From Ignavibacteriaceae bacterium (lineage in GTDB: Bacteria > Bacteroidota > Ignavibacteria > Ignavibacteriales > Ignavibacteriaceae), in NCBI GenBank assembly GCA_014860115.1, contig JACZKK010000199.1, positions 1 through 34,093 of the forward strand: DNA of 34,093 bases, given 5' to 3'. The translations under genes were made by a program, and so were the position numbers. Below are positions 59 through 34,093 of the stretch, in pieces (the stretch's first letter is position 1; each line of letters opens with the position of its first letter). Under the pieces are notes generated by a model, which was not told the DNA's origin, searched no databases, and saw only the letters and a list, made by a program, of their open reading frames with translations.

Positions 59-122
59 ATATAGTCGACGGAAAAAATTCTGCGTATTAAATATAATATC
101 AATTCAATTTATGGAGGTTTAT

Positions 123-5923: not shown

Positions 5924-7972
5924 TTATTTGAGCAACAACATTTTTTTCGACTGAACAAATTCATTAGCAATCATTCTGTAAATATATGTTCCTGAACTCA
6001 TTTGATTTCCGGATTCATTTAACCCGTCCCATTCAATTGTATAGTTTCCTCTTGGAACTTGTTCATTAAATAGAGTCTTCACTTCTCTTCCAAGAATATC
6101 ATAAATTTTTATCATTACTTTGCTGTCAACCGGTACTTCAAATCTTACACTTGTGGATGGATTGAAAGGGTTCGGGAAATTCTGGTAAAGAATGTAATCA
6201 AGGGGTATATAAGGTGGGGTTCCATAAACTATTTCTATTTCAGCATCCATAATTCTTTGTCTGTTGATATCAACTAAGATCAATTTTTCAATACTTATAT
6301 CCTCAGGATTACTGATAAATGATGGAATATCAGCAATAAAATTCTCACCGGATTTAATAGTTTTCATTGCCTTTCTGTCATATAACAGAACTCTGAGTAT
6401 TTCATCATCTTTATTGTAATACCCATGACCCAGATCTGTGTTAATGAACATATTATTTGAAATCTGAATATTTCCAGCAAATTCTACCTGGACTGCCCTT
6501 ACATCAACACTGGCATTTGAATATAGAGTTATACCTGATTTATTAATATAGAATGTTACTTTGAAGTCTTCTCCACTATATATTTTTTCAATGCTTGTAA
6601 ATGAACATGCATTTATCAGGATACCATTTGGATAAACACCGGTGAGTATAATATTTTGAAGCAGTGAAAGATCCTGTACATTAACATACGCATCCGGGTT
6701 CGGGGCAGGCTCACCCGGTATCCAGGGCGCAATATTTGCTCTCTCAAACTCATCCGTTTCAAGTGAATCTCTGCCGACTATATGATCAACAATCATGATA
6801 ATATCGAGAATATCGAGACATCCATCTCCATTAACATCACCATAAGCGCTGACTCTGTTTTGTGCAATAATAGTAAGTTCATCCCTCGATGGCGTAATGT
6901 CAATTGGAAAACCCTGATAAGTACTTGCCTCAGCTTCTGAAATTTTTATTGATGATTTAATGCTGTCCTGTAAAGCAGGCAAATCTGCGACTCGATACTT
7001 GACTTTTAATAACTCATTATAGTCACCCGGTGGTAAACCATTATTCTGATCAAGATTAAATAACAGGACCAGGATTTCATCTACAGATGCACCGTTTCCG
7101 GTAAGCGGACCTCTAAAAACGTTGTAAGTAAGAATCCAGCTGGGGTCAAGAATATCGCTTCCTTTTTGAATATTCTGAAAGGTTAATATGACATTGTCAT
7201 CAATAGACTGGTTAACTAATAATCTGAATTGCAATGCCTGTGCTTTATCAGTCAAACCTTTCAACTGCATTATATCTACATAAGAATCATATTCAAGACG
7301 GTAAACCGTATCCTTTTCAAAAATTAATCCCTGGCTAGGGATGATTGTAATTGCTTTTATAATTAATTTAAATTCATCCCTTGATGGTGTAATATCAATC
7401 GGTTGACCTTGTGCAGTGCTTGCCTGAGCGTTAGTAATTTTCATAGAGGATTTGACACTATCTTGTAATACCGGAAGATCTGCAACTATGTAATTAACTT
7501 TTAATAATTCATTGTAATCTCCGGGAGGTAATCCACCATTCTGATTCAAATTATAGAGTAAGATTAATACTTCGTCCTTCGATGCGCCATTCGGTAAAAC
7601 AGTACCTTTAATAATATTGTAATTCACCACCCAGTTTTGGTCACTGATGTCAGCACCTTTTTCTAAATTATCGAAAATTAATATTGTACTGTCATCTTCA
7701 GCTTTGTTTAACTGAATTCTGAACTGAATTGCCTGTGCAATACCGCTAAGATTTTTAAGCTGTAGAATATCAGTATAAGAACTGTCTTTTGAGATGTAAC
7801 GGAATGTTTTCTCGAAAATCAAGCCGGAATCATCTGTTGGATAAAATGAAGGACGATTTGAATCCAACTCAAAAGAATTGTTTTGAAAAGTGTTCTCTCC
7901 TGCAAAAATTCCCTGAGCAGGAAATAAAACAAAGAATAAATAAAATGAAATTAATTTACGGAAAACCCGCAT
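5924..7972 (-). CDS. secreted protein with two cohesin-like repeats, dockerin-like segment and T9SS sorting domain
   Basis: Exported surface or extracellular protein of unknown partner. The start is set at ATG 7972 (MRVFRKLISFYLFF signal peptide), preceded by an AAGAG-type ribosome site; an upstream in-frame TTG at 8002 lacks one. After the signal peptide come two homologous modules of about 155 residues (about 50-208 and 215-370). Each contains GLIFEK, an ALQFR/AIQFR strand, GLPPGDYNELLKV and IDITPSRDE. Then comes a dockerin-like stretch (about 377-445) with a calcium-loop-like GDVNGDGCLDILD and a second weaker half VNVQDLSLLQNII. A third beta-sandwich-like region follows (about 450-585), then a T9SS sorting domain (about 595-682, QNFPNPFNPST, ending KKMLLLK). 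The cohesin assignment is from pattern only; the dockerin-like and sorting motifs are clear. Confidence 0.85.
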   Translation of the reverse strand: MRVFRKLISFYLFFVLFPAQGIFAGENTFQNNSFELDSNRPSFYPTDDSGLIFEKTFRYISKDSSYTDILQLKNLSGIAQAIQFRIQLNKAEDDSTILIFDNLEKGADISDQNWVVNYNIIKGTVLPNGASKDEVLILLYNLNQNGGLPPGDYNELLKVNYIVADLPVLQDSVKSSMKITNAQASTAQGQPIDITPSRDEFKLIIKAITIIPSQGLIFEKDTVYRLEYDSYVDIMQLKGLTDKAQALQFRLLVNQSIDDNVILTFQNIQKGSDILDPSWILTYNVFRGPLTGNGASVDEILVLLFNLDQNNGLPPGDYNELLKVKYRVADLPALQDSIKSSIKISEAEASTYQGFPIDITPSRDELTIIAQNRVSAYGDVNGDGCLDILDIIMIVDHIVGRDSLETDEFERANIAPWIPGEPAPNPDAYVNVQDLSLLQNIILTGVYPNGILINACSFTSIEKIYSGEDFKVTFYINKSGITLYSNASVDVRAVQVEFAGNIQISNNMFINTDLGHGYYNKDDEILRVLLYDRKAMKTIKSGENFIADIPSFISNPEDISIEKLILVDINRQRIMDAEIEIVYGTPPYIPLDYILYQNFPNPFNPSTSVRFEVPVDSKVMIKIYDILGREVKTLFNEQVPRGNYTIEWDGLNESGNQMSSGTYIYRMIANEFVQSKKMLLLK

Positions 7973-8002
7973 CCTTGTTCTCTTTTTAAAATTTTTACTC
8001 AA

Positions 8003-8619: not shown

Positions 8620-10173
8620 CTATTTAAGCAATAACATTTTTTTTGTCTGAGTGAAACTTCCGCATTTTAATTGAGAAAAATAAATTCCGCTTGGTAATCC
8701 TTCTGCATCGAATTCAATTTCATATTTACTTGCAGTTTTATACTCATTAACCAATGTTGCAACTTCATTTCCTAAGACATCATAAACTTTCAGTGTTTGC
8801 CAACTGCCTATTGGCGACTGCCAACTGATTTTTGTAGTCGGATTAAACGGATTTGGATAATTCTGATAAAGTATAAATCCTTCCGGAATATTTCCTTCAG
8901 TAATTGAAGAAACTGGATTATATTCATAAGCGCCAATATCAAAACCAGTTCCCTGTGGACGTGATACATAATCAAGATCCTCAGACACAGTCGGTAAAAC
9001 TAAATTTGTTCCAGCATCGACGGCTTGCGCATTTTGAAGGAGATGAAAATTACTATTTGTGTGATCAACAAAAATTTGATTTTCAGGATCTGCAATCATT
9101 GAATGAAGATCATATCCAAGAGACTGCCATTGGCTCAAAGTCATATTTGAATTTCCATCATCATTGCTTAATCGATTAACCAGGATATTATAATCACTAG
9201 TAAATCCTGTTATGGAAGCTGCATCAATCGAAATACTTCCTCTAAAACTGTGATGACTAATTAAAATATTATTGTAAAGCGTGTTACCAGTTGAACCATC
9301 GGTTACAAGAATATTCCATCTTCCATCTGATGGCTGGATGATTGTGTTGTTATAAACTTTATTATTCTTAGATGCATCTCCTCCATCGATTTGGTACATT
9401 GCAATTCCGGTTGCGTGATTATTGTAAACCAGGTTGTTGAAAATTTCAGAATTCTGAACTCCATCCATATTTATTGCTGAACCGCCGCCGTATCCGTTAT
9501 CGTGAATAATATTTCCTTCAACCACTGCATTGCTGATAATTCCATCACCACCCATTGATATATCGCCATTCATATGGATTCCGCAGCCGTTATTGTTGAA
9601 TGAATGATTGTTCCTGATTATTGGTCTGTCACTGCTGTTTGAAACATAAATTCCGTGTTCATCTTCGCTGAAAGAACAGGAATTATTTTCTATTAATATA
9701 TCATCTGTAAATCCTGTAAAAATTCCCCAGCGATAATTGTTATGGCAATAATTATTTTTTATCGTTATAAAATCTGAAACCGCTGCACGAATTCCTGCAC
9801 GAGGCTGATCCAGAATTTCGAATCCATCAATAACAATCCACGAAGCATTCTCAATATTAATTCCGTCAGGGGTTTCAGAATTTGGTTGATCGATTACAAC
9901 ATTATTTTCAATGGCCTTAAAAACAATTGGTGAAGTTTGGCTTGCATTAATTCTAATATCAAATCCAACATAAGTTCCTTCAAGAACTAAAACTGAGTCT
10001 TCTGCAGAAATCATATCTGCTGCATACTGTAATGTTGCAAATGCAGTTGGAGGTGTTAATCCGTTGTTACTGTTGCTTCCTGATTCTGAAACGTAATAAT
10101 TCGTCGAATACACATTGAAACTCAAGTTAATGATCAGCGCAATGAAGATGGCGAATTGTAATTGTGACCTCAT
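8620..10173 (-). CDS. right-handed parallel beta-helix protein with T9SS sorting domain
   Basis: Exported protein of the pectate-lyase-fold / DUF1565-like type. Such proteins bind or cleave acidic polysaccharides, but no catalytic residues can be assigned here. The start ATG 10173 follows GAGG in AAAGAGGAAGAATATG. Signal peptide about 1-23; then YYVSESGSNSNNGLTPPTAF, the usual entry of this family. Repeated N-rich coils follow (about 70-380), for example IKNNYCHNNYRWGIF, ILIENNSCSF, EIFNNLVYNN and KVYNNTIIQ, typical stacked asparagine-ladder turns. A T9SS type A sorting domain is at about 435-517 (QNYPNPFNPTT, ending TKKMLLLK). It is divergent from transketolase and probably heads a transcript that continues into the small lipoprotein gene. 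Confidence 0.88.
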   Translation of the reverse strand: MRSQLQFAIFIALIINLSFNVYSTNYYVSESGSNSNNGLTPPTAFATLQYAADMISAEDSVLVLEGTYVGFDIRINASQTSPIVFKAIENNVVIDQPNSETPDGINIENASWIVIDGFEILDQPRAGIRAAVSDFITIKNNYCHNNYRWGIFTGFTDDILIENNSCSFSEDEHGIYVSNSSDRPIIRNNHSFNNNGCGIHMNGDISMGGDGIISNAVVEGNIIHDNGYGGGSAINMDGVQNSEIFNNLVYNNHATGIAMYQIDGGDASKNNKVYNNTIIQPSDGRWNILVTDGSTGNTLYNNILISHHSFRGSISIDAASITGFTSDYNILVNRLSNDDGNSNMTLSQWQSLGYDLHSMIADPENQIFVDHTNSNFHLLQNAQAVDAGTNLVLPTVSEDLDYVSRPQGTGFDIGAYEYNPVSSITEGNIPEGFILYQNYPNPFNPTTKISWQSPIGSWQTLKVYDVLGNEVATLVNEYKTASKYEIEFDAEGLPSGIYFSQLKCGSFTQTKKMLLLK

Positions 10174-21557: not shown

Positions 21558-21588
21558 TTGTATTCTCCTCTAAATAACACCATATTTG
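21558..21588 (+). promoter_or_regulatory. candidate bipA promoter (TTG-N20-CATATTTG)
   Basis: TTG (21558-21560) and CATATTTG (21581-21588), one mismatch to TAnnTTTG, are 20 nt apart, the same spacing as in the three minus-strand promoters. The leader to the chosen TTG start would be about 30 nt. Confidence 0.45.
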
Positions 21589-21623
21589 TGCCTCATTTTT
21601 TAAGAATTAAAAGAAGAAAACTA

Positions 21624-23429
21624 TTGAAACAAATAAGAAACATAGCCATAATAGCCCACGTTGACCACGGCAAAACCACGCTTGTAGATCAGCTTCTTAA
21701 GCAAAGCAACGTATTCAGAAAAAACCAGGTTGTGCAGGATTGCTTCCTCGATTCAAACGACCTTGAAAGAGAAAGAGGAATTACTATACTTGCCAAGAAT
21801 ATCAGCATTCCTTACAAAGATGTAAAAATAAATTTAATTGACACACCAGGTCACGCAGACTTCGGCGGTGAAGTTGAACGTGTTCTTAAAATGGCAGACG
21901 GAGTTTTGCTTCTGGTGGATTCATTTGAAGGTCCGATGCCTCAGACAAGATTCGTTCTGGAAAAAGCTCTTCATCTTCATTTGAAACCGATTATTGTGAT
22001 AAACAAAATCGACAGACCGGATAACCGTCCCGCAGAAGTTCTCGATGAAATTTATGATCTGTTCATAGATCTCGGTGCTGACGATGCACAACTTGATTTC
22101 CCGGTAATTTATGCAAGCGGAAGAAACGGCTGGGCTGTAAAGAATCTTAAAGATGAAAGAAAAGATCTTGTTCCGCTACTTGAAAAGATTGTAAATAAAA
22201 TTCCTCAGCCGAAAGTGGAAATAGGCCCAATGCAAATGCAGATTACTTCTCTCGATTACAACGATTACGTTGGTCGAATCGGTATCGGCAGAGTTTTCCG
22301 CGGAACTTTGAGGAAGAATGATTCGCTTTGCATCATCAAAAGAAATGGCGACATTCATCCGGTCAGTATCAATCAGCTTTTCATATTTGAAGGAATAGCA
22401 CGAACAGAAGTTGATGAAGTTGTTGCAGGTGATATCTGTGCGATGGTTGGTGTTGAAGATATTGATATTGGCGATACAATTTCAGATGCCGAAAATCCCG
22501 AACCACTTTCAATCATAGATATTGATGAGCCAACAATAAGTATGTATTTCACAGTGAATACTTCTCCCTTTTATGGAAAGGAAGGGAAGTATGTAACTTC
22601 CAGACATCTTCGTGACAGACTTTACAAAGAGCTTGAGAAAAATGTTGCGATGCGTTTGGAGGAAACAGGCTCACCGGATACGTACAAAGTTTCGGGAAGA
22701 GGATTGCTTCATCTTTCAATTCTTATTGAAAATATGAGACGTGAAGGTTATGAGTTTGCTGTCGGACCACCGAAAGTTATTTACAAAGAAATTGATCACA
22801 AGAAAGCTGAGCCGATTGAAATACTCGTTGTCGATGTACCCAATAGTTTAACCGGTAAAGTGATTGAGCTTGTCGGACAAAGAAGGGGAGTGATGACAAA
22901 AATGGAAAAGAAGGGAAGTCTTACCACGCTTGAGTTTCATATTCCTTCCCGCGGATTGATGGGATTGAGGAATAGAATTCTTACAGTAACAGCCGGTGAA
23001 GGAATTATGCATCATCGTTTTTACCAATACGAATTCTTCAAAGGTTCGATAGTGCAAAGATCGAATGGAGTTTTGATTTCAATGCACGAAGGACAATCAA
23101 CTGCGTATGCGATTGATTCGCTTCAGGATCGTGGTGAGTTTTTTATTGAACCGGGAGATGTTGTTTACCGTGGACAAATCGTCGGTGAATACAATAAAGA
23201 TAATGATATCGAAGTTCACGTTAACCGCGGAAAGAAATTGACGAATATGCGAGCATCAGGTTCTGATAAAGCAGCTAAGATTGCACCTGCAATCAAATTC
23301 AGTCTTGAAGAAGCACTCGAGTATATAAAAGACGATGAGCTGGTTGAAGTAACACCAAAATCAATCAGGATGAGGAAGTTGTATTTAGATCCAACCGAAA
23401 GAAAGCGCTTTAATTTATCCAAAGTGTAA
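21624..23429 (+). CDS. typA: ribosome-associated GTPase BipA/TypA
   Basis: Translational GTPase related to EF-G that binds the ribosome and helps 50S assembly, especially at low temperature or under stress. An open frame extends to TTG 21558, but that would add LRIKRRK-type residues not expected in the family. TTG 21624 gives the usual KQIRNIAIIAHVDHGKTT start, has AAGAAG upstream, and leaves TTG 21558 as a promoter element. G motifs: AHVDHGKTT, ERGITI, DTPGHADFGGEVERV, NKID. Domain II follows (about 200-300), then the EF-G-like domains III and V, for example SGRGLLHLSILIENMRREGYE, and the BipA-specific C-terminal domain with FFIEPGDVVYRGQIVGE, HVNRGKKLTNMRASGSD and a basic end TERKRFNLSKV. 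601 residues, normal length. Confidence 0.95.
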   Translation: MKQIRNIAIIAHVDHGKTTLVDQLLKQSNVFRKNQVVQDCFLDSNDLERERGITILAKNISIPYKDVKINLIDTPGHADFGGEVERVLKMADGVLLLVDSFEGPMPQTRFVLEKALHLHLKPIIVINKIDRPDNRPAEVLDEIYDLFIDLGADDAQLDFPVIYASGRNGWAVKNLKDERKDLVPLLEKIVNKIPQPKVEIGPMQMQITSLDYNDYVGRIGIGRVFRGTLRKNDSLCIIKRNGDIHPVSINQLFIFEGIARTEVDEVVAGDICAMVGVEDIDIGDTISDAENPEPLSIIDIDEPTISMYFTVNTSPFYGKEGKYVTSRHLRDRLYKELEKNVAMRLEETGSPDTYKVSGRGLLHLSILIENMRREGYEFAVGPPKVIYKEIDHKKAEPIEILVVDVPNSLTGKVIELVGQRRGVMTKMEKKGSLTTLEFHIPSRGLMGLRNRILTVTAGEGIMHHRFYQYEFFKGSIVQRSNGVLISMHEGQSTAYAIDSLQDRGEFFIEPGDVVYRGQIVGEYNKDNDIEVHVNRGKKLTNMRASGSDKAAKIAPAIKFSLEEALEYIKDDELVEVTPKSIRMRKLYLDPTERKRFNLSKV

Positions 23430-23572: not shown

Positions 23573-25045
23573 TTACTTTAATAAAATCATTTTTTTTGAT
23601 AAAATAAATTCTCCTGCAAGGAGATTGTAAATATAAATTCCACTCGGTAGATCGCTGGCATCCCAATCTGTTTTGTAGTTTCCGGCAGATAGATTTTCAT
23701 TTACAAGTAATCCGACTTGTTCGCCAAGCAAATTGTAAACCGCTAACGTAATAAATTGGCTTTCGGGAATTCTAAACTCAATTGTTGTAGAAGGATTAAA
23801 AGGATTAGGATAATTTTGTTTTAGCTCAATTGTTTCGGGAATTGGAGCGTAATCATCTCGTTCAACCTTACTTATATTCGGATCGAATTTCAAAAGCCAG
23901 ATATCACGAGTATTAGTAACTTCTGAATAGTATTCGCCTGCAATTATCAAGCTGCCATCACTGTTTTTATTTATAGAGCGACCTACATTGTTAAAAGTTC
24001 CACCATAAGTTTTTGACCATTGAGCATTTCCATTTAAGTCTGTTTTAACGACCCAAAGATCCTGGTTGAATGTGCTTATTTTTCTATAACCTGTCCAAAC
24101 ATAACCACCATCTGATGTTTGAACAACTGACATTGCTCCATCGTGCCCATCACTACCCCAGCTTCTGGTCCAAAGAGTATCACCATTGTAATCAGTTTTG
24201 ATCAGCCAGGCATCGTGATAATTATTTGATGCCTCTGTTGACCCGGCAATAATAAATCCACCGTCGTCCGTTTGTCTGACATCATTGGCATAATTATCCT
24301 CAGTATTACCATAAGTTTTTGACCAAATCAGGTTACCATTTGAATCGGTTCTTATTAGCCAGCCATCAAAATCCCCGGTACCGAAAGACTCAGTACTTCC
24401 GGCAATAATAAATCCACCATCGGAAGTTCGATTAATAGAGCTTGAAAGATCACGTTCTACTCCGCCATAAGTTTTTGTCCAGATAATATCACCGGCAGAA
24501 TCAGTTTTCACAAGCCAAAGATCCTCCGGATCACCCGCACCAATTTTAGTATAACCTACAAAAACGTAACCACTGTCCGGTATTTCAACACCTTCTTCAA
24601 TAAAATAATACGCATAGTCACCCAAATGCTTTGTCCAAAGTGTAGTACCAGAGTTATTTGTTTTAATCATATAACCTTCCCAGAAGTTTGGATCGAATGA
24701 ATTGGTTTCACCGAAAATAATGTAACCACCATCATTGGTCTGATGAACACAGGTTGCATAATCGTAATCGCTTCCTCCGATTGTTTTCGTCCAGAGTGTA
24801 TCACCAGAAGAATTTGTTTTAATAAGCCATACATCATCTAAACCGGATCCAAATGCATCTGTTGTGCCGACCAGAATGAAACCGTCATCACTTGTTTGCT
24901 CGGCGTAATATCCGTACTCGTTTGCACTTCCTCCTAAGATTTTCGTCCAGAGTGTATCTGGTGTTTGTGAAAAACAAGTTTGAATTGAATAAAGAGTGAA
25001 GAATATCAGGAAAGAATAAAGCAAGGTTAAATTTTTACTTAACAT
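23573..25045 (-). CDS. secreted seven-repeat beta-propeller protein with T9SS sorting domain
   Basis: Exported protein of unknown ligand. The start is ATG 25045 (MLSKNLTLLYSFLIFF) because TGGAGG lies 5 nt upstream; an in-frame TTG at 25057 overlaps that site. After the signal peptide (about 1-27) come seven repeats of 51-52 residues (about 32-390). Each runs xxWTKxxGG...QTxDGGFIIxGxT...DxWLIKTDxxGD, which would form a seven-bladed propeller. The T9SS type A sorting domain (about 405-490) contains QNYPNPFNPST and ends LSKKMILLK. The repeats are close to each other, pointing to recent internal amplification. No catalytic residues are visible; a binding or surface role is likely (inference). It is convergent with bipA. 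Confidence 0.87.
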   Translation of the reverse strand: MLSKNLTLLYSFLIFFTLYSIQTCFSQTPDTLWTKILGGSANEYGYYAEQTSDDGFILVGTTDAFGSGLDDVWLIKTNSSGDTLWTKTIGGSDYDYATCVHQTNDGGYIIFGETNSFDPNFWEGYMIKTNNSGTTLWTKHLGDYAYYFIEEGVEIPDSGYVFVGYTKIGAGDPEDLWLVKTDSAGDIIWTKTYGGVERDLSSSINRTSDGGFIIAGSTESFGTGDFDGWLIRTDSNGNLIWSKTYGNTEDNYANDVRQTDDGGFIIAGSTEASNNYHDAWLIKTDYNGDTLWTRSWGSDGHDGAMSVVQTSDGGYVWTGYRKISTFNQDLWVVKTDLNGNAQWSKTYGGTFNNVGRSINKNSDGSLIIAGEYYSEVTNTRDIWLLKFDPNISKVERDDYAPIPETIELKQNYPNPFNPSTTIEFRIPESQFITLAVYNLLGEQVGLLVNENLSAGNYKTDWDASDLPSGIYIYNLLAGEFILSKKMILLK

Positions 25046-25192
25046 TTGAGCCTCCAAAAGTTTAAATAAAAAAATATCAGTTATCTATAGAAAGTCAGTG
25101 CTAACTGAGTCAATTATAATTACATATAAAACTTAAATTAATTTTTAGGAAGTTTCAATCAACAACTGGACACTGTTGCCAACGCGCATTTG

Positions 25193-25225
25193 AAAAAAAA
25201 GAGTTACTGTTTGAGCAGCAACTCT
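25193..25225 (-). terminator. rho-independent terminator of the VPS10-like operon
   Basis: Read on the minus strand, AGAGTTGCTG (25225-25216), loop CTCAAA, CAGTAACTCT (25209-25200) and then a T-tract. The stem is 10 bp with one G-T pair. It lies about 40 nt after the stop of the last operon gene. Confidence 0.85.
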
Positions 25226-25264
25226 TGTAATCTATTGTAAATATTTATGGTTATGACTACTTAG

Positions 25265-28200
25265 CTAACTTTTATCGTATTCTTCTCTTGTGATAACTTT
25301 TATTTCTTCCAGATTCAAACCTTTTAGTTCAGAATTTATCATCATTAATTCTTCACCAAGTATTTTATTCATTTGTTCCCGGTAATTATCATAAACTCCA
25401 GTAAACAAATTCAATCCCGATATCTGAGAATCAGTGGGTTTTCCTGAGTAACTGATAATTCCTGAATAAATATCAGCAACTTTTTCTGCTAACTTTACTT
25501 CTCCTGAGAGACGATTCGGACTGGTTGCAACCAATTCTTTGTGCATCTTTTCAAGTCTATTGGATAATTCAGTCATTGAATTCTTTAGTTCATCCGAAGA
25601 AACTTTTTCTTTAGCTCTATTCAGCTTTTCCATTAAATCAGTTGCCTGTCTGTCAGTAAAAGAAATATCTTCAAGCAGAGTGTAAGCACGATTAAGAGTT
25701 TCATACTGAAGATTCATATCTTCTGCCAAGTGACCGGTTGAAGGATCAGTTTGCAAAGTAATCTTTCCTTCATAAACATTTTCACCCTTTTTGATTTTCA
25801 CCGTGTATTCACCGGGAGGAAATGTAGGTCCAAATGCAGTTCTGAATGCAAGCATAGGATTCGCTGCTTTTACTTTCGGTGGTTTTTTCCTTACAGCCCA
25901 TTCAACATAGTTTATTCCTTTATTCTTTCCTGCAGGAAGTGTTTTTAACAGTTCACCATACGAATTATAAATCTCGACTGACATATCACCAAACACATGC
26001 CGCTTCTGCATATAGTAACTTATGATTGCGGAGGATTTCGGATTGCTTCCCCAAAATTCTTGATCACCCGAAAGACCGGTTGCATATCTCGGATTAGTTA
26101 TTGTATAAGGTTCTGACGGAAATATTGTTAATTCAGAAGAGAGAATTTGATCAGTCAGCATTCGGAGAGGAGTAATGTCATCGATTATTAAAATTCCTCT
26201 GCCATGTGTTGCAATTACGAGATCATTTTCAGTAGGATGGATTACCATTTCGTAAATCGGAACTTTAGGAACTTTACCTTCAAACCGTACCCATTCTTTT
26301 CCTCCATCTATTGTGATATACAACCCATATTCTGTTCCGAGGAATAATAAGTTTGGATTAACGAAATCTTCGGTAATTGTTCTTGCAAATGTTTCAATAC
26401 TTTCTGTTGCGAGTGATGCCCATGTTACACCGAGGTCTGTTGTTTTATAAACATAAACTTTCTTGTCACCATTTCTGTGACCATCGAACACAGCATAAGA
26501 TGTATTTGCATCGTGATTACTTGCCTGAACTTTTGCACACCAGGTATTTTTTGGAATTCCGGTAATATTTGAAGTAACGTCCGTCCAGCTTTCACCATCA
26601 TCATCTGTTACCTGGAGATTTCCGTCATCAGTTCCTGCCCAGATAATTCTGCTGTTCTTTGGTGACTCGCTGATTGTATAAATAGTACAATGATTTTCAG
26701 CAGTTGAGTTATCGATTGTTAGACCACCAGATTCTTCCTGCTTTTGTTTTTCAGGATCATTTGTTGTCAAATCAGGAGAAATTTTTTGCCAGGAATCACC
26801 ACGATTAGTTGTTCGATAAAGATACTGTGAACCGACGTACATCACTCCGCTATTTGTTGGTGAAAATGCAATCGGTGTATCCCAATTGAATCTTAGTTTT
26901 TCCTCAGAATTATCCGAGAACGGTTTTACTTCTTTTATTTCCCCCGTATTTTTATAATAACGCATCAGATTACCGCCCTGATACTGCCAGTAGATAATGT
27001 TTCTATCTGAAGGATCGGGGATTACATTAAAGCCATCTCCATAACCAACACTTTGCCAATCTGAATTTGAAATGCCACCAATTCCCTCAGATGGACCAAC
27101 CCACGAACCGTTATCCTGCAATCCGCCGTAAACATTGTACGATTTTTCATTGTCGACGGCGACATGGTAAAATTGTGATATTGGTAAGTTCTGTGCATGA
27201 ACCCAGGTGCTTGCTCTATCGTAACTCATATAGAGTCCGCCATCGGTACCAAGATACATCTGCGAATTATTTTTAGGATTTATCCATAAAGCATGCATGT
27301 CACCATGAACATTTCCACCTTCAATGAATGGAGAAGTGAATGAGAAACCACCATCATCACTTACGACCATGAAAAATCCGGGTTTATATAATCTGTTTGT
27401 ATCAACCGGATCGGGAACGATGTATGAAAAATAGAATGGACGATCAGCAACAACCTGTGCAGTTGTTCTGAGTTCCCAGGTTTTGCCAGAATCAGTTGAA
27501 CGATAAAGACCTGTTTTCTTTGATTCAACTAAAGCATAGATGATTTTCGGGCTGACCGGAGAAAACGCTACAGCTATTCTTCCAAGTTCTCCCATATCTG
27601 ATGCAATGTCAACCTTATTCCAATTATTTCCAGCATCAGTTGTCCGATATAATCCACTCCCTGGTCCACCGGATCTGAAAGTGTATGCCTTTCTCTGGAA
27701 ATCCCACATACCCGCATAAAGTACATTTGGATTCGAAAGATCCATCGCAAGATCAGCGCAGCCTGTTCCGTCATTAACAAATAGAATTTTATTCCATGTT
27801 TTTCCGCCATCAGTTGTTTTAAATACACCTCGTTCTTCATTTTGACCCCAGACTTTTCCAAGTGCAGCAACATAAACTTCATCTGTATTTTCAGGATTGA
27901 TTATGATTTTAGAAATGTGTTCAGTGTTTTCTAATCCAAGATGTTCCCACTTTTCACCGCCGTTGGACGTTTTATAAACACCGTCGCCGATACTGATGCT
28001 GTTTCTTGTTCTCGTTTCACCGGTTCCAACCCAGATATTCTCTTTGTTCTTCTGATTGATTGCAACTGCACCGATTGTCTGAACGTGATCTTTGAACACT
28101 TCCTTGAAAGTAGTTCCGCCGTTTGTGCTTTTCCACAATCCGCCACTTGCTGCGCCAATATAAACCAATCTTGGATCATCATTGAAAGCATCAATTGATA

Positions 28201-28348
28201 ATATACGTCCGCTCATTACAGCAGGACCAATCTCACGTGCTTCCATCGAGCCGAAAAAGCTGGAAGTGAGTTTTGAAGTTTGTGCATCCAAATTTTGTAC
28301 AGAAAATATCAGTGCAGCGAATAATGCAAAATAGATTACTCGTTTCAT
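25265..28348 (-). CDS. large VPS10/sortilin-like BNR-repeat exoprotein (operon gene 3)
   Basis: Exported 1027-residue protein of the sortilin/VPS10-like, Asp-box (BNR) propeller group; such bacterial proteins are often annotated as glycosyl hydrolases without proof. Signal peptide about 1-22. The long propeller (about 35-730) carries many Asp boxes, for example GLWKSTNGGTTF, GVYKTSNGGEKW, GVFKTTDGGKTW, GLYRSTDSGKTW, GLYITIDGGKEW. Near 800-840 is a FlgD-like Ig strand pattern (VEIYNSYGELLKTLPAGKNK, then YVEWAV). From about 890 there is a helical, coiled-coil-prone tail (LMEKLNRAKEKVSSDELKN). Unlike the other exported proteins here it has no PNPFNP-type C-terminal sorting domain, so it probably stays periplasmic or leaves by another route. 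Start ATG 28348 with AAGGT upstream; it follows the LolA-like gene by 17 bp. Confidence 0.82.
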   Translation of the reverse strand: MKRVIYFALFAALIFSVQNLDAQTSKLTSSFFGSMEAREIGPAVMSGRILSIDAFNDDPRLVYIGAASGGLWKSTNGGTTFKEVFKDHVQTIGAVAINQKNKENIWVGTGETRTRNSISIGDGVYKTSNGGEKWEHLGLENTEHISKIIINPENTDEVYVAALGKVWGQNEERGVFKTTDGGKTWNKILFVNDGTGCADLAMDLSNPNVLYAGMWDFQRKAYTFRSGGPGSGLYRTTDAGNNWNKVDIASDMGELGRIAVAFSPVSPKIIYALVESKKTGLYRSTDSGKTWELRTTAQVVADRPFYFSYIVPDPVDTNRLYKPGFFMVVSDDGGFSFTSPFIEGGNVHGDMHALWINPKNNSQMYLGTDGGLYMSYDRASTWVHAQNLPISQFYHVAVDNEKSYNVYGGLQDNGSWVGPSEGIGGISNSDWQSVGYGDGFNVIPDPSDRNIIYWQYQGGNLMRYYKNTGEIKEVKPFSDNSEEKLRFNWDTPIAFSPTNSGVMYVGSQYLYRTTNRGDSWQKISPDLTTNDPEKQKQEESGGLTIDNSTAENHCTIYTISESPKNSRIIWAGTDDGNLQVTDDDGESWTDVTSNITGIPKNTWCAKVQASNHDANTSYAVFDGHRNGDKKVYVYKTTDLGVTWASLATESIETFARTITEDFVNPNLLFLGTEYGLYITIDGGKEWVRFEGKVPKVPIYEMVIHPTENDLVIATHGRGILIIDDITPLRMLTDQILSSELTIFPSEPYTITNPRYATGLSGDQEFWGSNPKSSAIISYYMQKRHVFGDMSVEIYNSYGELLKTLPAGKNKGINYVEWAVRKKPPKVKAANPMLAFRTAFGPTFPPGEYTVKIKKGENVYEGKITLQTDPSTGHLAEDMNLQYETLNRAYTLLEDISFTDRQATDLMEKLNRAKEKVSSDELKNSMTELSNRLEKMHKELVATSPNRLSGEVKLAEKVADIYSGIISYSGKPTDSQISGLNLFTGVYDNYREQMNKILGEELMMINSELKGLNLEEIKVITREEYDKS

Positions 28349-28365
28349 TTTGTTTACCTTAGATT

Positions 28366-29112
28366 TTATTCAGACTTTGTCGAATCAGATGGAGCCGTAA
28401 CTTCAGGCATTTCAAACATTGAATCCGGTATTTCAACATCGTAAGTAATCTCCTCAAGCACCATCTGCATAACTGTTTGTCCGTTCATTTTAGTTTCAAC
28501 AGAATAAGCAGCCAGAATGTCATTAACAGGTTTATAATTACTGAAAATTGTTTCAGCTTCAGTTTCTACTCCCTGCATTTTGATTTTAGTCAGCATCTTT
28601 AACGGAACATAATTCTCAGCATCAATGTAGGTGGTAATTACATCTCCGCTTGGTCTTGTCAATTTCAAAACGTATGTTTCAATGTCATCAACATTTTCCT
28701 TACCAATAAGCTCAACAGTATAACCTTTTTCCTTATAGTTATAATAAAGTCCTTCGTAGTCAGCCTGAATTTTCATACGGTCGATCTGCTCTTCTGTCAT
28801 TGGCTGCGGATCTGTAGAACCCATCATTGGATTGATTGACCAGCCCTGCGTCCCATCGAACCCCGAAGAAATTTTCATTCCCTGGAACTCAGCTTCCGAC
28901 CTGAAGCTCATAGGTTTTTTATGATATGATGTAAAAGGAATTTCAAATTGACCCTGGATAATTTTTCCTTTTGTCATCATTGTAGATGTTGCGAGAAGTT
29001 TTTCCTGACCAATAACCGCAAAATGTTGTTCCAGAATTTCGTCAACTGTTTGTGCAAGCGACAGTGTCGTGATCATTATAATCATCAGGAAAGACAAAGT
29101 TTGATTTTTCAT
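28366..29112 (-). CDS. LolA-like periplasmic protein (operon gene 2)
   Basis: 248-residue exported protein with a LolA/LolB-like fold pattern (outer membrane lipoprotein-sorting group). Signal peptide about 1-20 (ends SLAQ). Then a helix VDEILEQHFAVIGQEKLLA and a curved sheet of strands: MMTKGKIIQGQFEIPFTSY, SGFDGTQGWSINPM, YTVELIGKENVDDIETYVLKL, TTYIDAENYVPLKML, AETIFSNYKPV. LolA proper shuttles lipoproteins through the periplasm; relatives bind lipids or peptides in the same cleft. There is no lipobox. ATG 29112 follows GAGGG at good spacing. It sits between two VPS10-like genes with gaps of 42 and 17 bp, so it is very likely co-expressed with them and may carry or process a hydrophobic partner (inference). 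Confidence 0.75.
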   Translation of the reverse strand: MKNQTLSFLMIIMITTLSLAQTVDEILEQHFAVIGQEKLLATSTMMTKGKIIQGQFEIPFTSYHKKPMSFRSEAEFQGMKISSGFDGTQGWSINPMMGSTDPQPMTEEQIDRMKIQADYEGLYYNYKEKGYTVELIGKENVDDIETYVLKLTRPSGDVITTYIDAENYVPLKMLTKIKMQGVETEAETIFSNYKPVNDILAAYSVETKMNGQTVMQMVLEEITYDVEIPDSMFEMPEVTAPSDSTKSE

Positions 29113-29154
29113 TTTACCCTCTTATAAATTGTTTTTAAGTATTTGAATTAATTT

Positions 29155-32100
29155 CTAATTCTTTTTCCACTCCGGAATTCTTCCTGGCGTATAAGGTGCT
29201 CCTGATTTTTCAAGTTCTGACTCAACATTTTTAATTTTCTGATCAACTGAATTAAGATCGTTCAATATTTCATCAACTTTTTCCGCCGCTGCTTCATAAG
29301 ATTTTATAAATGTATTCGTTGGTGCTGCAGTTGTACTCCATAACGCACCCGTGATCAGATTTACTCTTCCTTTAACTGAAGTTGGAGAGCCGCCTTCATA
29401 TCTTGCCCTAAGTGGATCGCCATTTAGTTTTTTATTGAGTTCTCGCAAGTCGGATTCAACACTAATTATATTATTGTAAGTGGCTGCCGGAACTTCTGCT
29501 CCATCTAAAACTGCTTTTTTGAGATAAGATATTTTATCAACTAACTCTCCTCTAAATGCATCAGCTCCTGTGATAGCTCGTGTTAAATCAGCAACTTTTT
29601 TATTGAAAGCATTGAGTGCAAGTTTGTCTTGAGCAGGAAGGGTAGTATTGTTCAGTGACTTGCAGATGAACTCTTTTTTACTGACAAGCTCTGTGAATTT
29701 TCCATCCTGAAACTTTGAAAGCGAGACAAAATATTTTCCTGGAACAACCATATAACCTTTGTCAGCTTCAATCCAAGGAACAGAATCATCGAACGGTTCA
29801 AGAGAAATGGGAGTTGGCGGAGTATAGCGGAAATTCCAGACAATTCTGTTCACACCTTTCTGTGCATCAGTTTTTATTTTTCGTACTACATTGCCCATTT
29901 CATCTGTTATGGTAAATAAAAGATAAACTTCCGGCTCTTCCTGTTCGGCTTTTAGAGTTTCGTATGATGGATATTTTATGTCTTCTTTGTTCTTCTGCTT
30001 TTTCTTTTCTTCATCTCTGCGAATTTCTTTCAGAGTTTTGAATTCATCTTTTAAATAATAAGTGAACACTGCTCCAACTTCAGGATTCGGTGCCGAATAA
30101 AAGCTTGCACCCATAAATGCAACACCTCTGAATCCTAATGGATTGGACTGGATGAACATGAGAGCATCTTTAATCGGAAATATTTCTGCTTCTTTTTGCA
30201 AGGCCTCTTTTGACATAAATCTCAGCGGTGAATAATCATCGAGAATGTAAACGCCTCTTCCAAAAGTTGAGACTACAAGATCATTTTCTCTTCTTTGAAT
30301 ATCGAGATCCATTACACAAGCTGGCGGCATTCCGTTATTCAAAGTTATCCATTCCTTTCCGCCATCATTTGAGAAATAAACTCCGTACAGAGTTCCGAGA
30401 AACAAAAGATTTTTATCAACGTGATCTTCTGCAATCGAATAACTGCTTCCAAGTTCCGGCAGATTGTTGTTTATTGAGAACCAGTTCTTTCCGCCATCAG
30501 TCGTTTTGTAAATGTATGGCTTGTAATCACCGCCAACGTAATTATGGCAGGCAGCATAAGCAACATTCATATCAATGTTTGAAGCAATGATGTGATGAAT
30601 TCTTGTGTATTCCGGCAAACCCGAAGTTGTAGCTTTAGTCCATGTTGTTCCACCGTTATTTGTAACGTGAATTAATCCATCACCTGAACCAACAAATAAA
30701 ATATTTTCATCAAGAGGAGATTCGGCAATCGTTACAATTTGCGCCATCGCACTTTTACGTGCAAGCTGATCGATACTCCAGCTTTGTCCCATTAACTTTT
30801 GCATTTCCTTTGGAACACCTCTGGTCAAATCAGGACTAATTTCTCTCCACGTACTTCCCTGATCATCACTCCGCATAAGTTTGTTACCGCCATGATACAA
30901 TCTTTTATTATCAAATTTTGAAAGGATGAATCCTGCGTCCCAATCATAACGATAAGCAGTATCCGCAAAGTCCTGCGGTTGTATATATAAGTTTTCCCCG
31001 CTTCGTTTATCAAATCGAACGAGTCCACCGAATTGTGATTGCGAATAAATTATGTTTGGATCTTTCCAATCGACCTGTGTTTCAAAACCATCACCTGAGT
31101 TAGTGAAAAGCCAATCGCTGTTTACAATTCCTGAAGAATTAATCGTTCGTGAAGGACCGCCGAGACTATTATTATCTTGCGTTCCGATGTAAATATTATA
31201 AAATGGTTCTGCATTATCAGTAGTAACTTTATAAATCTCCGCTATCGGAATATTCGACTTAAAATCCCAGTTCTTTGCCTGGTCAAAAGTTTCATAAACT
31301 CCGCCATCACACCCAGCTCGAATGTTTTTGTTATCATTCGGATTTATCCAGAGTGCGTGGTTATCAACGTGCTTTTTATCGTCACCAAGATTTTTCCACG
31401 TCTTTCCTCCGTCAACCGAAACCTGTAGGAAAGTGTCATCGCTGTAAACTCTATCTAAATCTACCGGATCACAATAAAGTTCATGATAGTAAAATCCAGC
31501 CGATGCATTGTAACTGTTTAGTTTTGTCCAGCTAGCACCGCGGTCAGTACTTTTATATGTACCTTTATTTTTATCAGTTGCTTCGATGACTGCAAAAAGA
31601 TAATCAGGATTCACAGTTGATATTGCCATTCCTATTCTTCCAACATCTTCTGCAGGTAAACCACCTTTCAATTTATCCCATGTTATACCGCCGTCAAGAC
31701 TTCTGTAAATTCCGCTTTCAGGTCCGCCGTAAACTCCAGTATATAAATTTCTCATTCTTTGGTGAGCAACAGCGTAAAGAATATTCGAAAATCTTGGATC
31801 CATATGAACCTGGTAGCATCCGGTATATTCACTGATTTTTAAAACATTCTCCCATGTTTTTCCGCCATCAGTTGTTTTATAAATTCCTCTGTCACCACCG
31901 GAAACCCGTGACGAACCATAAGCTGCGGCATAAACTATGTTTGAATTGTTTGGATCGATAACAATTCCGCCAATCTGGTGTGATTCTTTAAGACCCATAT
32001 TATTCCATGTTTTACCGCCATCTTCAGTTTTATAGATGCCATCACCAAAAATCACATTGTTCTGGTTATTGTTTTCCCCAGTTCCTACCCAGACAACATT

Positions 32101-32421
32101 TGGATTAGTTGGATCAATTTTGATGCAGCCAATTGCATAAGACTTATTAGCATCAAAAACAGGGTCGAAAGTAATTCCGCTGTTTGTTGTCTTCCACAAC
32201 GAGCCGTGACCCGATGCAACATAGTATTCACTGAAGTTAAAAGGATTGACAGCAATATCAACTACTCTTCCTCCAGTCACAGCAGGACCAATACTTCTAA
32301 ACGAGAGTCCTGACAGGGAAATATTTTTTAGTGAATCAGCACCTGAATTTTCCTGCGAGAGTGTGACTGACGAAAGTGAGATAAGAATAAATAAAACTGA
32401 AATATTAAATAATTTAGACAT
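29155..32421 (-). CDS. large VPS10/sortilin-like BNR-repeat exoprotein (operon gene 1)
   Basis: 1088-residue paralogue of the last operon gene, same architecture: signal peptide (about 1-22), opening LSFRSIGPAVTGGRVVDIA (matching REIGPAVMSGRILSIDA in the other), an Asp-box propeller (about 35-735; SLWKTTNSGITF, GIYKTEDGGKTW, GIYKTTDGGKTW, GIYRSLDGGITW, YIYKTTDGGKNW), a Lys/Glu-rich insert (about 790-820, RRDEEKKKQKNKED) absent from the paralogue, a FlgD-like Ig segment (FTITDEMGNVVRKIKTDA, then RIVWNFRYTPP) and a helical C-terminal tail ending KSGAPYTPGRIPEWKKN. No T9SS sorting domain. ATG 32421 with AGGTTA upstream. It heads the three-gene operon; the 243 bp upstream hold a degenerate repeat but no clear promoter. 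Confidence 0.82.
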   Translation of the reverse strand: MSKLFNISVLFILISLSSVTLSQENSGADSLKNISLSGLSFRSIGPAVTGGRVVDIAVNPFNFSEYYVASGHGSLWKTTNSGITFDPVFDANKSYAIGCIKIDPTNPNVVWVGTGENNNQNNVIFGDGIYKTEDGGKTWNNMGLKESHQIGGIVIDPNNSNIVYAAAYGSSRVSGGDRGIYKTTDGGKTWENVLKISEYTGCYQVHMDPRFSNILYAVAHQRMRNLYTGVYGGPESGIYRSLDGGITWDKLKGGLPAEDVGRIGMAISTVNPDYLFAVIEATDKNKGTYKSTDRGASWTKLNSYNASAGFYYHELYCDPVDLDRVYSDDTFLQVSVDGGKTWKNLGDDKKHVDNHALWINPNDNKNIRAGCDGGVYETFDQAKNWDFKSNIPIAEIYKVTTDNAEPFYNIYIGTQDNNSLGGPSRTINSSGIVNSDWLFTNSGDGFETQVDWKDPNIIYSQSQFGGLVRFDKRSGENLYIQPQDFADTAYRYDWDAGFILSKFDNKRLYHGGNKLMRSDDQGSTWREISPDLTRGVPKEMQKLMGQSWSIDQLARKSAMAQIVTIAESPLDENILFVGSGDGLIHVTNNGGTTWTKATTSGLPEYTRIHHIIASNIDMNVAYAACHNYVGGDYKPYIYKTTDGGKNWFSINNNLPELGSSYSIAEDHVDKNLLFLGTLYGVYFSNDGGKEWITLNNGMPPACVMDLDIQRRENDLVVSTFGRGVYILDDYSPLRFMSKEALQKEAEIFPIKDALMFIQSNPLGFRGVAFMGASFYSAPNPEVGAVFTYYLKDEFKTLKEIRRDEEKKKQKNKEDIKYPSYETLKAEQEEPEVYLLFTITDEMGNVVRKIKTDAQKGVNRIVWNFRYTPPTPISLEPFDDSVPWIEADKGYMVVPGKYFVSLSKFQDGKFTELVSKKEFICKSLNNTTLPAQDKLALNAFNKKVADLTRAITGADAFRGELVDKISYLKKAVLDGAEVPAATYNNIISVESDLRELNKKLNGDPLRARYEGGSPTSVKGRVNLITGALWSTTAAPTNTFIKSYEAAAEKVDEILNDLNSVDQKIKNVESELEKSGAPYTPGRIPEWKKN

Positions 32422-32664: not shown

Positions 32665-33612
32665 TTAACTATTGAGATAAACGTTTTCATTATGCCATAG
32701 AATAAAATCTTTTTGAGGTGCGTCTTGAGATAAATTTGGTGTGGATATTTTGCTTCCATGAAATGGATAATAAGAATGTCCATTATCGAAATCGAGTTTC
32801 AATCTAGGACTTACTTCCACTCTGAAGTCAGTTGTGAGAGTTATATATCCCTGATCGAAAAGCTTGTGCAGATCGGCCCTTAGCAATAATCCATTAGAAA
32901 TCAAATTTGGACCATTTTTACCAAATGGTTTTATATGCGATGCATCTAAAGCAGGTAATGAATGTTCTTTTGTTATTGCACACGCACGATTGTACGCTTC
33001 CAAAACTGCAATTCTGAAAATCCCTTGACCAATACGCGGTTGAATTAATTGTGGATGTCCATATCTTTCAATTGGTTCGTCAACTTCCAGAATATTTTCA
33101 GATTTTACTAAAGTGCTCCCAATTGGGATTCTTTCTAAGCATTCATTCCAAATTCTTAAACCTTCTCCATGAGAAAGATTATATTTCTTATTTCTAAGAT
33201 TTGCTGGCGGCCAATCTTTGGGGCCTTTAATCCATAAATTTTCTTTGAAGAAAACTGGTTGGGCTAGTAATATGCACCCAATTTCGTTAATCGCTCTATT
33301 ACTATGATAATCAATTCTTTTTCTGATAGCACCTATCTTTTCTTTCATTGCTTCAAGTGATGGTGTGCCATTTTTCAATTGGAATGAATCCCAGGCTAAC
33401 CAATCTGGTAATCTTACATAGCGAGAAAAGAAAGCGACTCCACATACAGCATTATTATACTTGGCTTTCAATTTAAAGAAAAAGGGAGAGCCAACTTCTG
33501 CACGGAATCCCCAATAAGCAGAGGGTGTCCAGAAGTTGACTTCATCTAAATTAGATTGGTTTTCTAAAAATTCATACCAACCATAATCAGTAATTGCGAC
33601 TGTTCCTTCCAA
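32665..33612 (-). CDS. HNH endonuclease with EVE/PUA-like N-terminal domain
   Basis: Predicted nuclease, 315 residues, probably acting on DNA. The N-terminal part (about 1-80) has VNFWTPSAYWGF, GSPFFFKLK, AVCGVAFFSRYVRLPDWLAW and DSFQLKNG, which resembles the PUA-like reader domains found in front of HNH nucleases that recognise modified bases. The C-terminal HNH_2-like domain (about 205-265) shows CAITKEHSLPALDASHIKPF with H226 and SNGLLLRADLHKLFD with N240 and H249, the metal-binding and catalytic set. The start is TTG 33612, which gives the usual short lead-in to VAITDYGWYEF; it lies 12 bp after the stop of the preceding gene, so translation may be coupled. A modification-dependent restriction role is inference. 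Confidence 0.82.
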   Translation of the reverse strand: MEGTVAITDYGWYEFLENQSNLDEVNFWTPSAYWGFRAEVGSPFFFKLKAKYNNAVCGVAFFSRYVRLPDWLAWDSFQLKNGTPSLEAMKEKIGAIRKRIDYHSNRAINEIGCILLAQPVFFKENLWIKGPKDWPPANLRNKKYNLSHGEGLRIWNECLERIPIGSTLVKSENILEVDEPIERYGHPQLIQPRIGQGIFRIAVLEAYNRACAITKEHSLPALDASHIKPFGKNGPNLISNGLLLRADLHKLFDQGYITLTTDFRVEVSPRLKLDFDNGHSYYPFHGSKISTPNLSQDAPQKDFILWHNENVYLNS

Positions 33613-33624
33613 TTGTTTTCGAGT

Positions 33625-34093
33625 TTACTTAATTATCTTCTTTTCTCTCAGTACAGTTTCAATAGTGTTCTGTCCAATTTCCTGTAAGTCGTAATTTACG
33701 CGAGTGTAAGGCTTGTTTATCTTTATGTATCTGCTTAAATCTATCGGAGTTCCAATAACAACTGAGTCGCAATCGGTTTTGTTAATTGTCACTTCAAGAT
33801 CTTTCATCTGTGCTGGTCCGTAGCCCATTGCAGGTAGCAGGATACCAATGTTTGGATATTTCTTGAATGTGTCGGAAATTGTTTTAACAGTATATGGTCT
33901 TGGATCAACAATTTCTTTTGCACCAAGCTTTTGTGCTGCTATTGTACCGGCTCCATATTTCATTTCTCCGTGAGTTAATGTTGGACCATCTTCAACAACC
34001 AGAACTCTCTTTCCTTTGATTACAGAAGGTTTATCAACTGTAATCGGTGAAGCTGCTTCGATAATTATTGCATCGGGATTGATCAGCTTTGTG
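33625..34093 (-). CDS. cyclic 2,3-diphosphoglycerate synthetase-like GTPase, C-terminal part
   Basis: Cut by the window edge; the open frame runs to the last base with no start in sight, so only the C-terminal 155 residues or so are seen. The text KRVLVVEDGPTLTHGEMKYG, KLGAKEIVDPRPY, DTFKKYPNIGILLPAMGYG, DLEVTINKTDCDSVVIGTPIDLSRYIKINKP and RVNYDLQEIGQ is typical of the predicted GTPases annotated as cyclic 2,3-diphosphoglycerate synthetase (COG2403 type). The actual reaction in bacteria is not established. An internal ATG at 33963 is not the start, since the homologous text continues upstream of it. Confidence 0.82.
   Translation of the reverse strand, partial: TKLINPDAIIIEAASPITVDKPSVIKGKRVLVVEDGPTLTHGEMKYGAGTIAAQKLGAKEIVDPRPYTVKTISDTFKKYPNIGILLPAMGYGPAQMKDLEVTINKTDCDSVVIGTPIDLSRYIKINKPYTRVNYDLQEIGQNTIETVLREKKIIK

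Follow-up and report, generated by a model that had tools for sequence, protein, structure and literature searches.

The window analyzed here is a 34,093-nucleotide stretch of Ignavibacteriaceae DNA (GenBank assembly GCA_014860115.1, contig JACZKK010000199.1, forward strand), in which three minus-strand genes, called A, LOL, and B in the order in which they are read, encode proteins of 1088, 248, and 1027 amino acids. A previous reading of the letters and open reading frames alone (the sequence-only reading) had described them as an operon of two paralogous VPS10-like exoproteins on either side of a LolA-like protein. The question raised by the locus is which of the three genes belong together, and for what kind of work. 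The open reading frames were found as described, with gaps of 42 bp (A to LOL) and 17 bp (LOL to B), and A and B were paralogs (32% identity over 1087 columns). The view that the LolA-like protein and the propellers belong together held for LOL and B and failed for A, which was found beside the pair in 2 of 40 loci. The comparisons described below strongly support the LOL-B pair as the conserved unit, one that would have arisen once and been kept as a unit. Both protein families are known; what is new is a LolA paralog with an apparent propeller partner. Genomes, contigs, and loci are cited by working labels (G, C, and L, respectively), and the source genome of the window is G000.

Homologs of B were scored in 296 genomes of the phylum, with two candidates per genome among the matches listed. 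LOL was located upstream of B, on the same strand and within 700 bp, for 28 of the 29 best B homologs (at least 1170 bits). These 28 include G249, in which a gene for 178 amino acids lies between LOL and B, and the exception was G315, whose LOL is on another contig. The 1170-bit line was drawn after the list had been seen; at 1000 bits or more the count was 29 of the 38 B matches listed, and eight of the nine misses belonged to a sister clade. The 56 LOL rows behind these counts were picked by hand: they are single-domain frames that score about 112 bits or higher, and neither long frames nor lower-scoring rows were taken, except for the rows of G097 and G281, which were kept because they are adjacent to B and without which the count is 26 of 29. 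A scan of genome contigs with LOL as the query gave 29 loci, of which 15 had B downstream (about 1 kb on in L012), 13 from Dyadobacter had no B, and one lay at a contig end. Over 38 complete pairs, G249 apart, the distance from LOL to B ranged from -59 to 120 bp. No flanking gene family was present in more than 5 of the 38 loci, and LOL and B therefore look like a unit by themselves.

Most of the 38 loci were fetched because the pair was present, so that the tree and the correlation given next do not describe a random sample. Two loci, L070 and L073, were left out of the set when the window LOL query missed their LOL genes, both of which were found by a later search; a partial B excluded L012 and L029, and L005 was left out of the propeller tree by the rule used to score A against B. 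In the FastTree phylogeny of 59 propellers, the paired Bs formed one clade (support 99) broken only by that of G315, which appears to represent one later loss of adjacency, and the A-type propellers and the sister clade lacking LOL were placed separately. No LOL was found at 13 sister-clade loci in a six-frame search of the 7-12 kb fetched. The distance matrices of LOL and B over the 38 loci were correlated with r = 0.95, and none of 2000 permutations gave a value as high. The pair is also present in Kangiella sp. HZ709, a member of the Gammaproteobacteria; both its LOL and its B are nearest by identity to a Flammeovirgaceae locus (L036), the tree sets its B beside that of G322 (support 97), and either placement is compatible with a transfer of both genes out of Bacteroidota. 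The Kangiella pair was probably acquired in this way, and LOL and B were probably transferred as a unit. A functional link between LOL and B is regarded as highly probable. The literature search, which covered the top listings of a limited library, gave no account of the LOL-B pair as a unit.

LOL appears to belong to the LolA superfamily by its predicted fold. Its match to PF17131 (LolA_like) was a marginal pass, with 31.3 bits at a cut-off of 30, and among three relatives that are single-domain and either adjacent to B or from Dyadobacter, L009 (39 bits) and L018 (31 bits) passed and L035 (22.3 bits) failed. The classical LolA family, PF03548, was absent among the family matches of LOL at E ≤ 1, and the classical LolA of the source genome is a separate gene (on C29) that matches PF03548. 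The AlphaFold model of LOL has a predicted local distance difference test score (pLDDT) of 90 and shows the LolA/LolB half-barrel, which bears out the LolA fold proposed for the middle gene by the sequence-only reading. Structure comparison of the model gave 3bk5 (Z 18.6), the DUF1329 protein 4z48 (Z 18.2), Porphyromonas gingivalis LolA3 (Z 17.8, root mean square deviation 3.6, 199 residues), and P. gingivalis LolB (Z 15.8); the remaining LolA and LolB entries listed reached Z 8.6-12.5, and VioE and RseB have the LolA fold too. The segment YNYKEKGY was invariant in the 20 sequences of one alignment (A1), although not in all 38 paired LOLs.

The nearest described counterpart of LOL is LolA3, which likewise has a large half-barrel of the LolA/LolB type; the P. 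gingivalis protein matches the LOL profile (E 4e-7, profile positions 136-240), and 3bk5 and 4z48 are as near to LOL as LolA3 by Z score. In P. gingivalis, the binding of LolA3 to LolB is only weak, and a separate function has been suggested for it (PMC13103446); Flavobacterium johnsoniae LolA3 (Fjoh_0605) has a signal peptidase I signal (PMC11885536). LolA3 differs from LOL in that no propeller partner is mentioned for it in the available excerpts of PMC11885536 and PMC13103446.

Other LOL-like genes were encountered during these searches. One LOL-related LolA-like domain forms the C-terminus of an M16 peptidase (L054:279-2456; 120.7 bits with profile A1), where a peptidase in place of a propeller is joined to it in one chain; this fusion scored 16.4 bits against PF17131, under the cut-off. 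Open frames of 640-740 amino acids with LOL matches suggest that such fusions are common in Bacteroidota, one protein having been scanned. A second LOL-like gene, seen in the source genome (L055:4108-4842, on G000:C35) and at L094, L095, and L102, lies head to head with a DUF5686/CarbopepD_reg_2 gene, an arrangement kept in G002 and seen in G003 and G004 with a gene for 804-813 amino acids of similar start. At all 13 Dyadobacter loci (L014-L026), LOL is followed by a gene for 175-193 amino acids that resembles YceI lipid-binding proteins, and an inorganic pyrophosphatase-like gene lies close to LOL in G013, G029, and G175; both names come from reading the sequence.

The label VPS10-like given to A and B by the sequence-only reading agrees with the name of their Pfam family, PF15902 (VPS10/sortilin), for which A scored 118.1 bits in six stretches and B 112.2 bits in five against a cut-off of 33; it does not agree with the predicted fold of B, which is of the tandem type found in glycoside hydrolase family 74 (GH74). 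Asp-box repeats (PF02012) were also matched in B. The model of B (pLDDT 80) matched GH74 xyloglucanases with Z 27.7-30.6 across 594-618 residues, and by sequence the best match of B to these enzymes had E 4.9e-14. In the Foldseek comparison, the top matches were tandem GH74 propellers and sortilin (5nnj) took rank 50 with a template modeling (TM) score of 0.15; sortilin was not in the 50 structure-comparison rows listed for B, an absence that excludes nothing. By these structure matches, B is consistent with a tandem seven-bladed propeller.

Three known kinds of propeller protein may be set beside B. GH74 enzymes have a tandem seven-bladed propeller fold (PMC2716378), and B resembles the xyloglucanases 2cn2, 6p2m, 6p2k, and others in its predicted tandem seven-bladed Asp-box propeller of about 600 residues; it differs from them in the residue at the first catalytic Asp, in an extra beta-sandwich and helical tail, and in having LOL as a partner. 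Its conserved HxDxH and QDN residues may be a further difference. With sortilin and Vps10, B shares the above-cut-off PF15902 match and the Asp-box repeats. Vps10 receptors carry cysteine-rich 10CC modules. None are present in A or B: residues 731-1027 of B contain no cysteine and residues 735-1088 of A contain one. The predicted GH74-type fold would be a further difference, Vps10 receptors having a 10-bladed propeller (PMC2716378), and the analogy with eukaryotic sorting receptors drawn by the sequence-only reading is weak on both counts. PorZ of P. gingivalis, an envelope protein that handles the lipid-linked glycan A-LPS (PMC8545088), is like B in having an additional C-terminal domain after two propellers (5m11, Foldseek rank 29); unlike B, it is located at the cell surface and carries a type IX secretion system (T9SS) C-terminal domain, and its rank and TM score (0.39) stood under those of most GH74 entries by E-value. 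Of other propellers in the phylum, BamI, the Bacteroidota BAM propeller, is six-bladed (PMC12578637), and a Sortilin-Vps10-labelled protein of Flavobacterium columnare with a subtilisin PA domain is among the apparent T9SS-secreted peptidases (PMC9936825), so that T9SS cargo of the phylum may include some proteins with a VPS10 label. The conserved pair of LOL and B suggests that both labels, 'VPS10 domain' and 'glycosyl hydrolase', are misleading for propellers of this kind in Bacteroidota.

An internal FlgD-like Ig segment and a helical tail had also been proposed for both propellers. A beta-sandwich and a helical tail are indeed predicted in B; the FlgD_ig family assignment was not borne out, A scoring 13.6 bits against a cut-off of 27 and B giving no match at E ≤ 1. 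At least eight genes of the source genome match A (C46 twice, C99, C168, C56, C218, C120, and C59), in addition to weaker matches.

At the first catalytic position of GH74, B carries another residue. Of the 38 paired Bs, 36 have Ala at residue 67 and the other 2 have Gly; the residue aligned with it (chain position 43) is Asp for 2cn2 and Ala for 2cn3. We take this position to be the catalytic Asp70 of 2cn2, and 2cn3 to be its mutant. For the second GH74 catalytic Asp, presumably Asp465 of OXG-RCBH (2ebs is titled as a D465N mutant), none of the alignments made gave a place on B. The Ala or Gly at residue 67 makes catalysis of the known GH74 kind by B unlikely. HxDxH was found in 52 of 52 distinct propellers of at least 850 amino acids from the first locus set, among them distant paralogs, and B-like proteins without a paired LOL had it in 14 of 14 cases (66 propellers in all). 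A core of 88 positions is common to the paired Bs, the sister clade, and A, and includes QDN 411-413, Glu111, and Asp438.

Signal peptides of A, LOL, and B were judged by eye from the sequences. Out of 38 sequences each, 31 LOLs and 30 Bs fit a rough pattern for a signal peptide ending before Gln, and Gln after the cleavage site is usual for signal peptidase I substrates in Bacteroidetes (PMC5837995). No T9SS sorting domain (PF18962 or TIGR04183) was found at E ≤ 1 in A, LOL, or B of the window, as the sequence-only reading had noted for both propellers. Its further statement that the other exported proteins of the window carry this domain held for three of those scanned (111-3872, 8620-10173, and 23573-25057) and not for 5924-8002, which has FlgD_ig only. 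The PorP family gave a match in the source genome under the cut-off only. Because of the signal peptidase I type of cut, the small number of lipoboxes, and the lack of a T9SS domain, LOL and B would mostly be soluble in the periplasm, where both should reside.

The best explanation of these results, to which a probability of roughly 60% is assigned, is that LOL and B form a two-protein periplasmic module, Sec-exported and cleaved by signal peptidase I, composed of a carrier and a binder or processor. LOL would be a LolA3-like carrier with a hydrophobic or acylated ligand (a lipid, a lipoprotein acyl chain, or a lipid-linked sugar) in its half-barrel, and B, with its conserved polar set of Glu111, HxDxH 348-352, QDN 411-413, and Asp438, would bind, receive, or process the exposed part of that ligand. 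The combination of carrier and propeller is proposed because a separate function has been suggested for P. gingivalis LolA3, because PorZ, a double-propeller protein of this phylum, can bind a lipid-linked glycan, and because in F. johnsoniae part of the lipoproteins arrive at the outer membrane even when LolA and LolB are missing, for which alternative routes were suggested (PMC11885536). Within this explanation, the chances that LOL is a carrier are put at about even, those of direct contact between LOL and B are equally balanced, and an enzymatic B falls slightly short of even odds; these gradings, and that of the functional link, are judgements. A more specific version, considered improbable, is that LOL-B is a dedicated Bacteroidota envelope delivery route outside LolA-LolB, in which LOL would hand an acylated or lipid-linked substrate to B, which would receive or cut it at a new HxDxH/QDN site; if true, it would count among the alternative routes suggested in PMC11885536.

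The pair matters because Bacteroidota have several LolA paralogs, some with neither partner nor cargo known, and are also rich in VPS10/GH74-type propellers, for which no role was found in the literature search. Each family thereby gains a candidate partner, and a tractable flavobacterium would allow a simple genetic test; the Christiangramia and Gramella strains of L035 and L037 have the pair. The inheritance of LOL and B side by side in many members of the phylum points to an undescribed joint job in the cell envelope.

Several observations weigh against a two-protein carrier module. The correlation of distances follows from shared ancestry too, and most loci were chosen for having the pair. 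Of the 56 LOL places listed, 27 are without B (that of G160 on a short contig end), as are all 13 Dyadobacter loci; since LOL occurs without B, or fused to an M16 peptidase, its role is not tied to B alone. The sister clade of B in turn occurs without LOL. Only six positions are specific to the paired Bs, and no obvious docking patch for LOL is therefore apparent on B. The GH74-type assignment must be read beside single WD40 propellers, which reach Z 27.7 against B over about 300 residues. A rough lipobox pattern is present in 1 of 38 LOLs and 3 of 38 Bs, and likeness of a predicted fold would not by itself show ligand binding by LOL.

The alternative that survives best, although it is thought unlikely, retains the pair and dispenses with the lipid: B would be an envelope enzyme with a new HxDxH/QDN active site in a GH74 fold, and LOL its dedicated chaperone or inhibitor. 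The polar residues are invariant throughout the propeller family, with LOL or without it (66 of 66 for HxDxH, and the 88 core positions), and the LolA fold serves other work as well, as in VioE and RseB. LOL also occurs without B, however, and the sister clade and A exist without LOL, so that the propeller fold needs no LolA chaperone. The carrier module is preferred, and the place of A relative to it is considered next.

The sequence-only reading had treated A, LOL, and B as one surface or periplasmic trafficking complex, analogous to VPS10 sorting receptors. The trio is present in the window and in the congener G005, its gaps are short, a terminator follows its last gene, and 5 of 40 loci, belonging to three lineages, carry a second propeller next to LOL-B. 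Among these 40 pair loci, however, A was located beside LOL only in the window and in G005 (the contigs of L030 and L031 end upstream of LOL), and the second propellers elsewhere belong to a different subfamily in each lineage. A was found without LOL-B in two congeners: G001 has LOL-B without A, and A elsewhere, and the single-contig G002 has A without the LOL of the pair, its sole LOL match being the ortholog of the LOL-like gene on G000:C35 (85.5% identity). For A, this is the outcome that the sequence-only reading had named as refuting the trio. With the GH74-like predicted fold of B and the low standing of sortilin (rank 50, TM 0.15) added, a trafficking trio is very unlikely, and the trio as a conserved operon was rejected, A being apart from LOL-B in most genomes seen. 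At three loci, a propeller of another subfamily lies downstream of LOL-B on the same strand (L073:11308-14454, L076:10573-13692, and L011:11727-14468), and an arrangement of two propellers around a LolA-like gene may recur, perhaps beyond chance.

The position of A is better described by a locus bordered by the gene for the TypA/BipA GTPase. G001 and G002 carry TypA, then A, then a gene for a 440-amino-acid protein, with small other genes between and no LOL-B. In the window it is TypA, a T9SS protein of 494 amino acids, B, LOL, A, an HNH protein, and the gene for the 440-amino-acid protein. The G005 contig carries A (3' half), LOL, B, and two genes, and ends in TypA; those of G003 and G004 end inside A. 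In this genus LOL-B thus occupies the interval between TypA and A, and A would be an older resident of the TypA-A locus rather than part of the conserved unit. The opposite order of events, a move of A to the side of LOL-B, was rejected once TypA was recognized in the window. The A of G002 (82.6% identity) is nearer to that of the window than is the A of G005 (76.0%), so that one insertion with a later loss and two insertions are both possible. The features of the locus are listed in the table.

Table. Features of the LOL-B pair and the surrounding TypA-A locus, in window coordinates
Feature	Position	Strand	Remarks
Gene A	29155..32421	-	1088 amino acids; propeller of the family of B; signal peptide by eye; putative resident of the TypA-A locus
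Gene LOL	28366..29112	-	248 amino acids; putative LolA-superfamily member; signal peptide by eye; precedes B in the conserved pair
LOL residues 124-131, YNYKEKGY	28720..28743	-	Between helix 107-117 and strand 132-141
Gene B	25265..28348	-	1027 amino acids; signal peptide by eye, then predicted tandem beta-propeller, beta-sandwich, and helical tail; follows LOL in the conserved pair
B residues 35-725, propeller region	26174..28246	-	GH74 structures match about 600 residues
B Ala67, place of the first GH74 catalytic Asp	28148..28150	-	Profile alignment
B residues 348-352, HxDxH	27293..27307	-	Invariant in 38 paired Bs
B residues 411-413, QDN	27110..27118	-	Invariant in 38 paired Bs
B residues 774-867, predicted beta-sandwich (formerly 'FlgD-like Ig')	25748..26029	-	Model
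B residues 875-1010, predicted helical tail	25319..25726	-	Model
Intrinsic-terminator-like hairpin, then T-run, 3' of B	25199..25226	-	11-bp hairpin
TypA/BipA GTPase gene	21558..23429	+	Other border of the TypA-A locus
Gene for 440-amino-acid protein, 3' part	33625..34092	-	Same gene upstream of A in G001 and G002

That B is an ordinary secreted GH74 glycoside hydrolase with LOL as a bystander would accord with its fold match at Z of about 30 and its sequence match to xyloglucanases (best E 4.9e-14), and is nevertheless the least probable of these explanations, given Ala or Gly at the first catalytic Asp position in 38 of 38 Bs and a conserved adjacency to LOL of single origin that no other neighboring family shares in more than 5 of 38 loci.

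Transcription signals were searched for in the window. The strong terminator claimed after the last gene was recovered as the hairpin listed in the table (25226-25199 in reading direction), with a stability of -17.7 kcal/mol and a z of -4.07; none of 200 shuffled sequences was equally stable. Six further and weaker terminator-like sites were found in the window, against a shuffle mean of 4.6. The Bacteroidetes-type promoter motif, with the consensus TAnnTTTG, gave no match in the sequences upstream of A, LOL, and B, and the scan for sigma-70 promoters gave 18 sites, under the shuffle mean of 24.1. Lying just behind A in this genus, LOL-B may share the transcript of A.

Two minor observations concern the neighborhood of A. 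A gene with an HNH_2 endonuclease domain (32665-33612) lies between A and the gene for the 440-amino-acid protein in the window, where G001 and G002 carry other small genes. In a close congener, A is split over three frames (L100, G003:C30:2-2907), by mutation or by assembly error.

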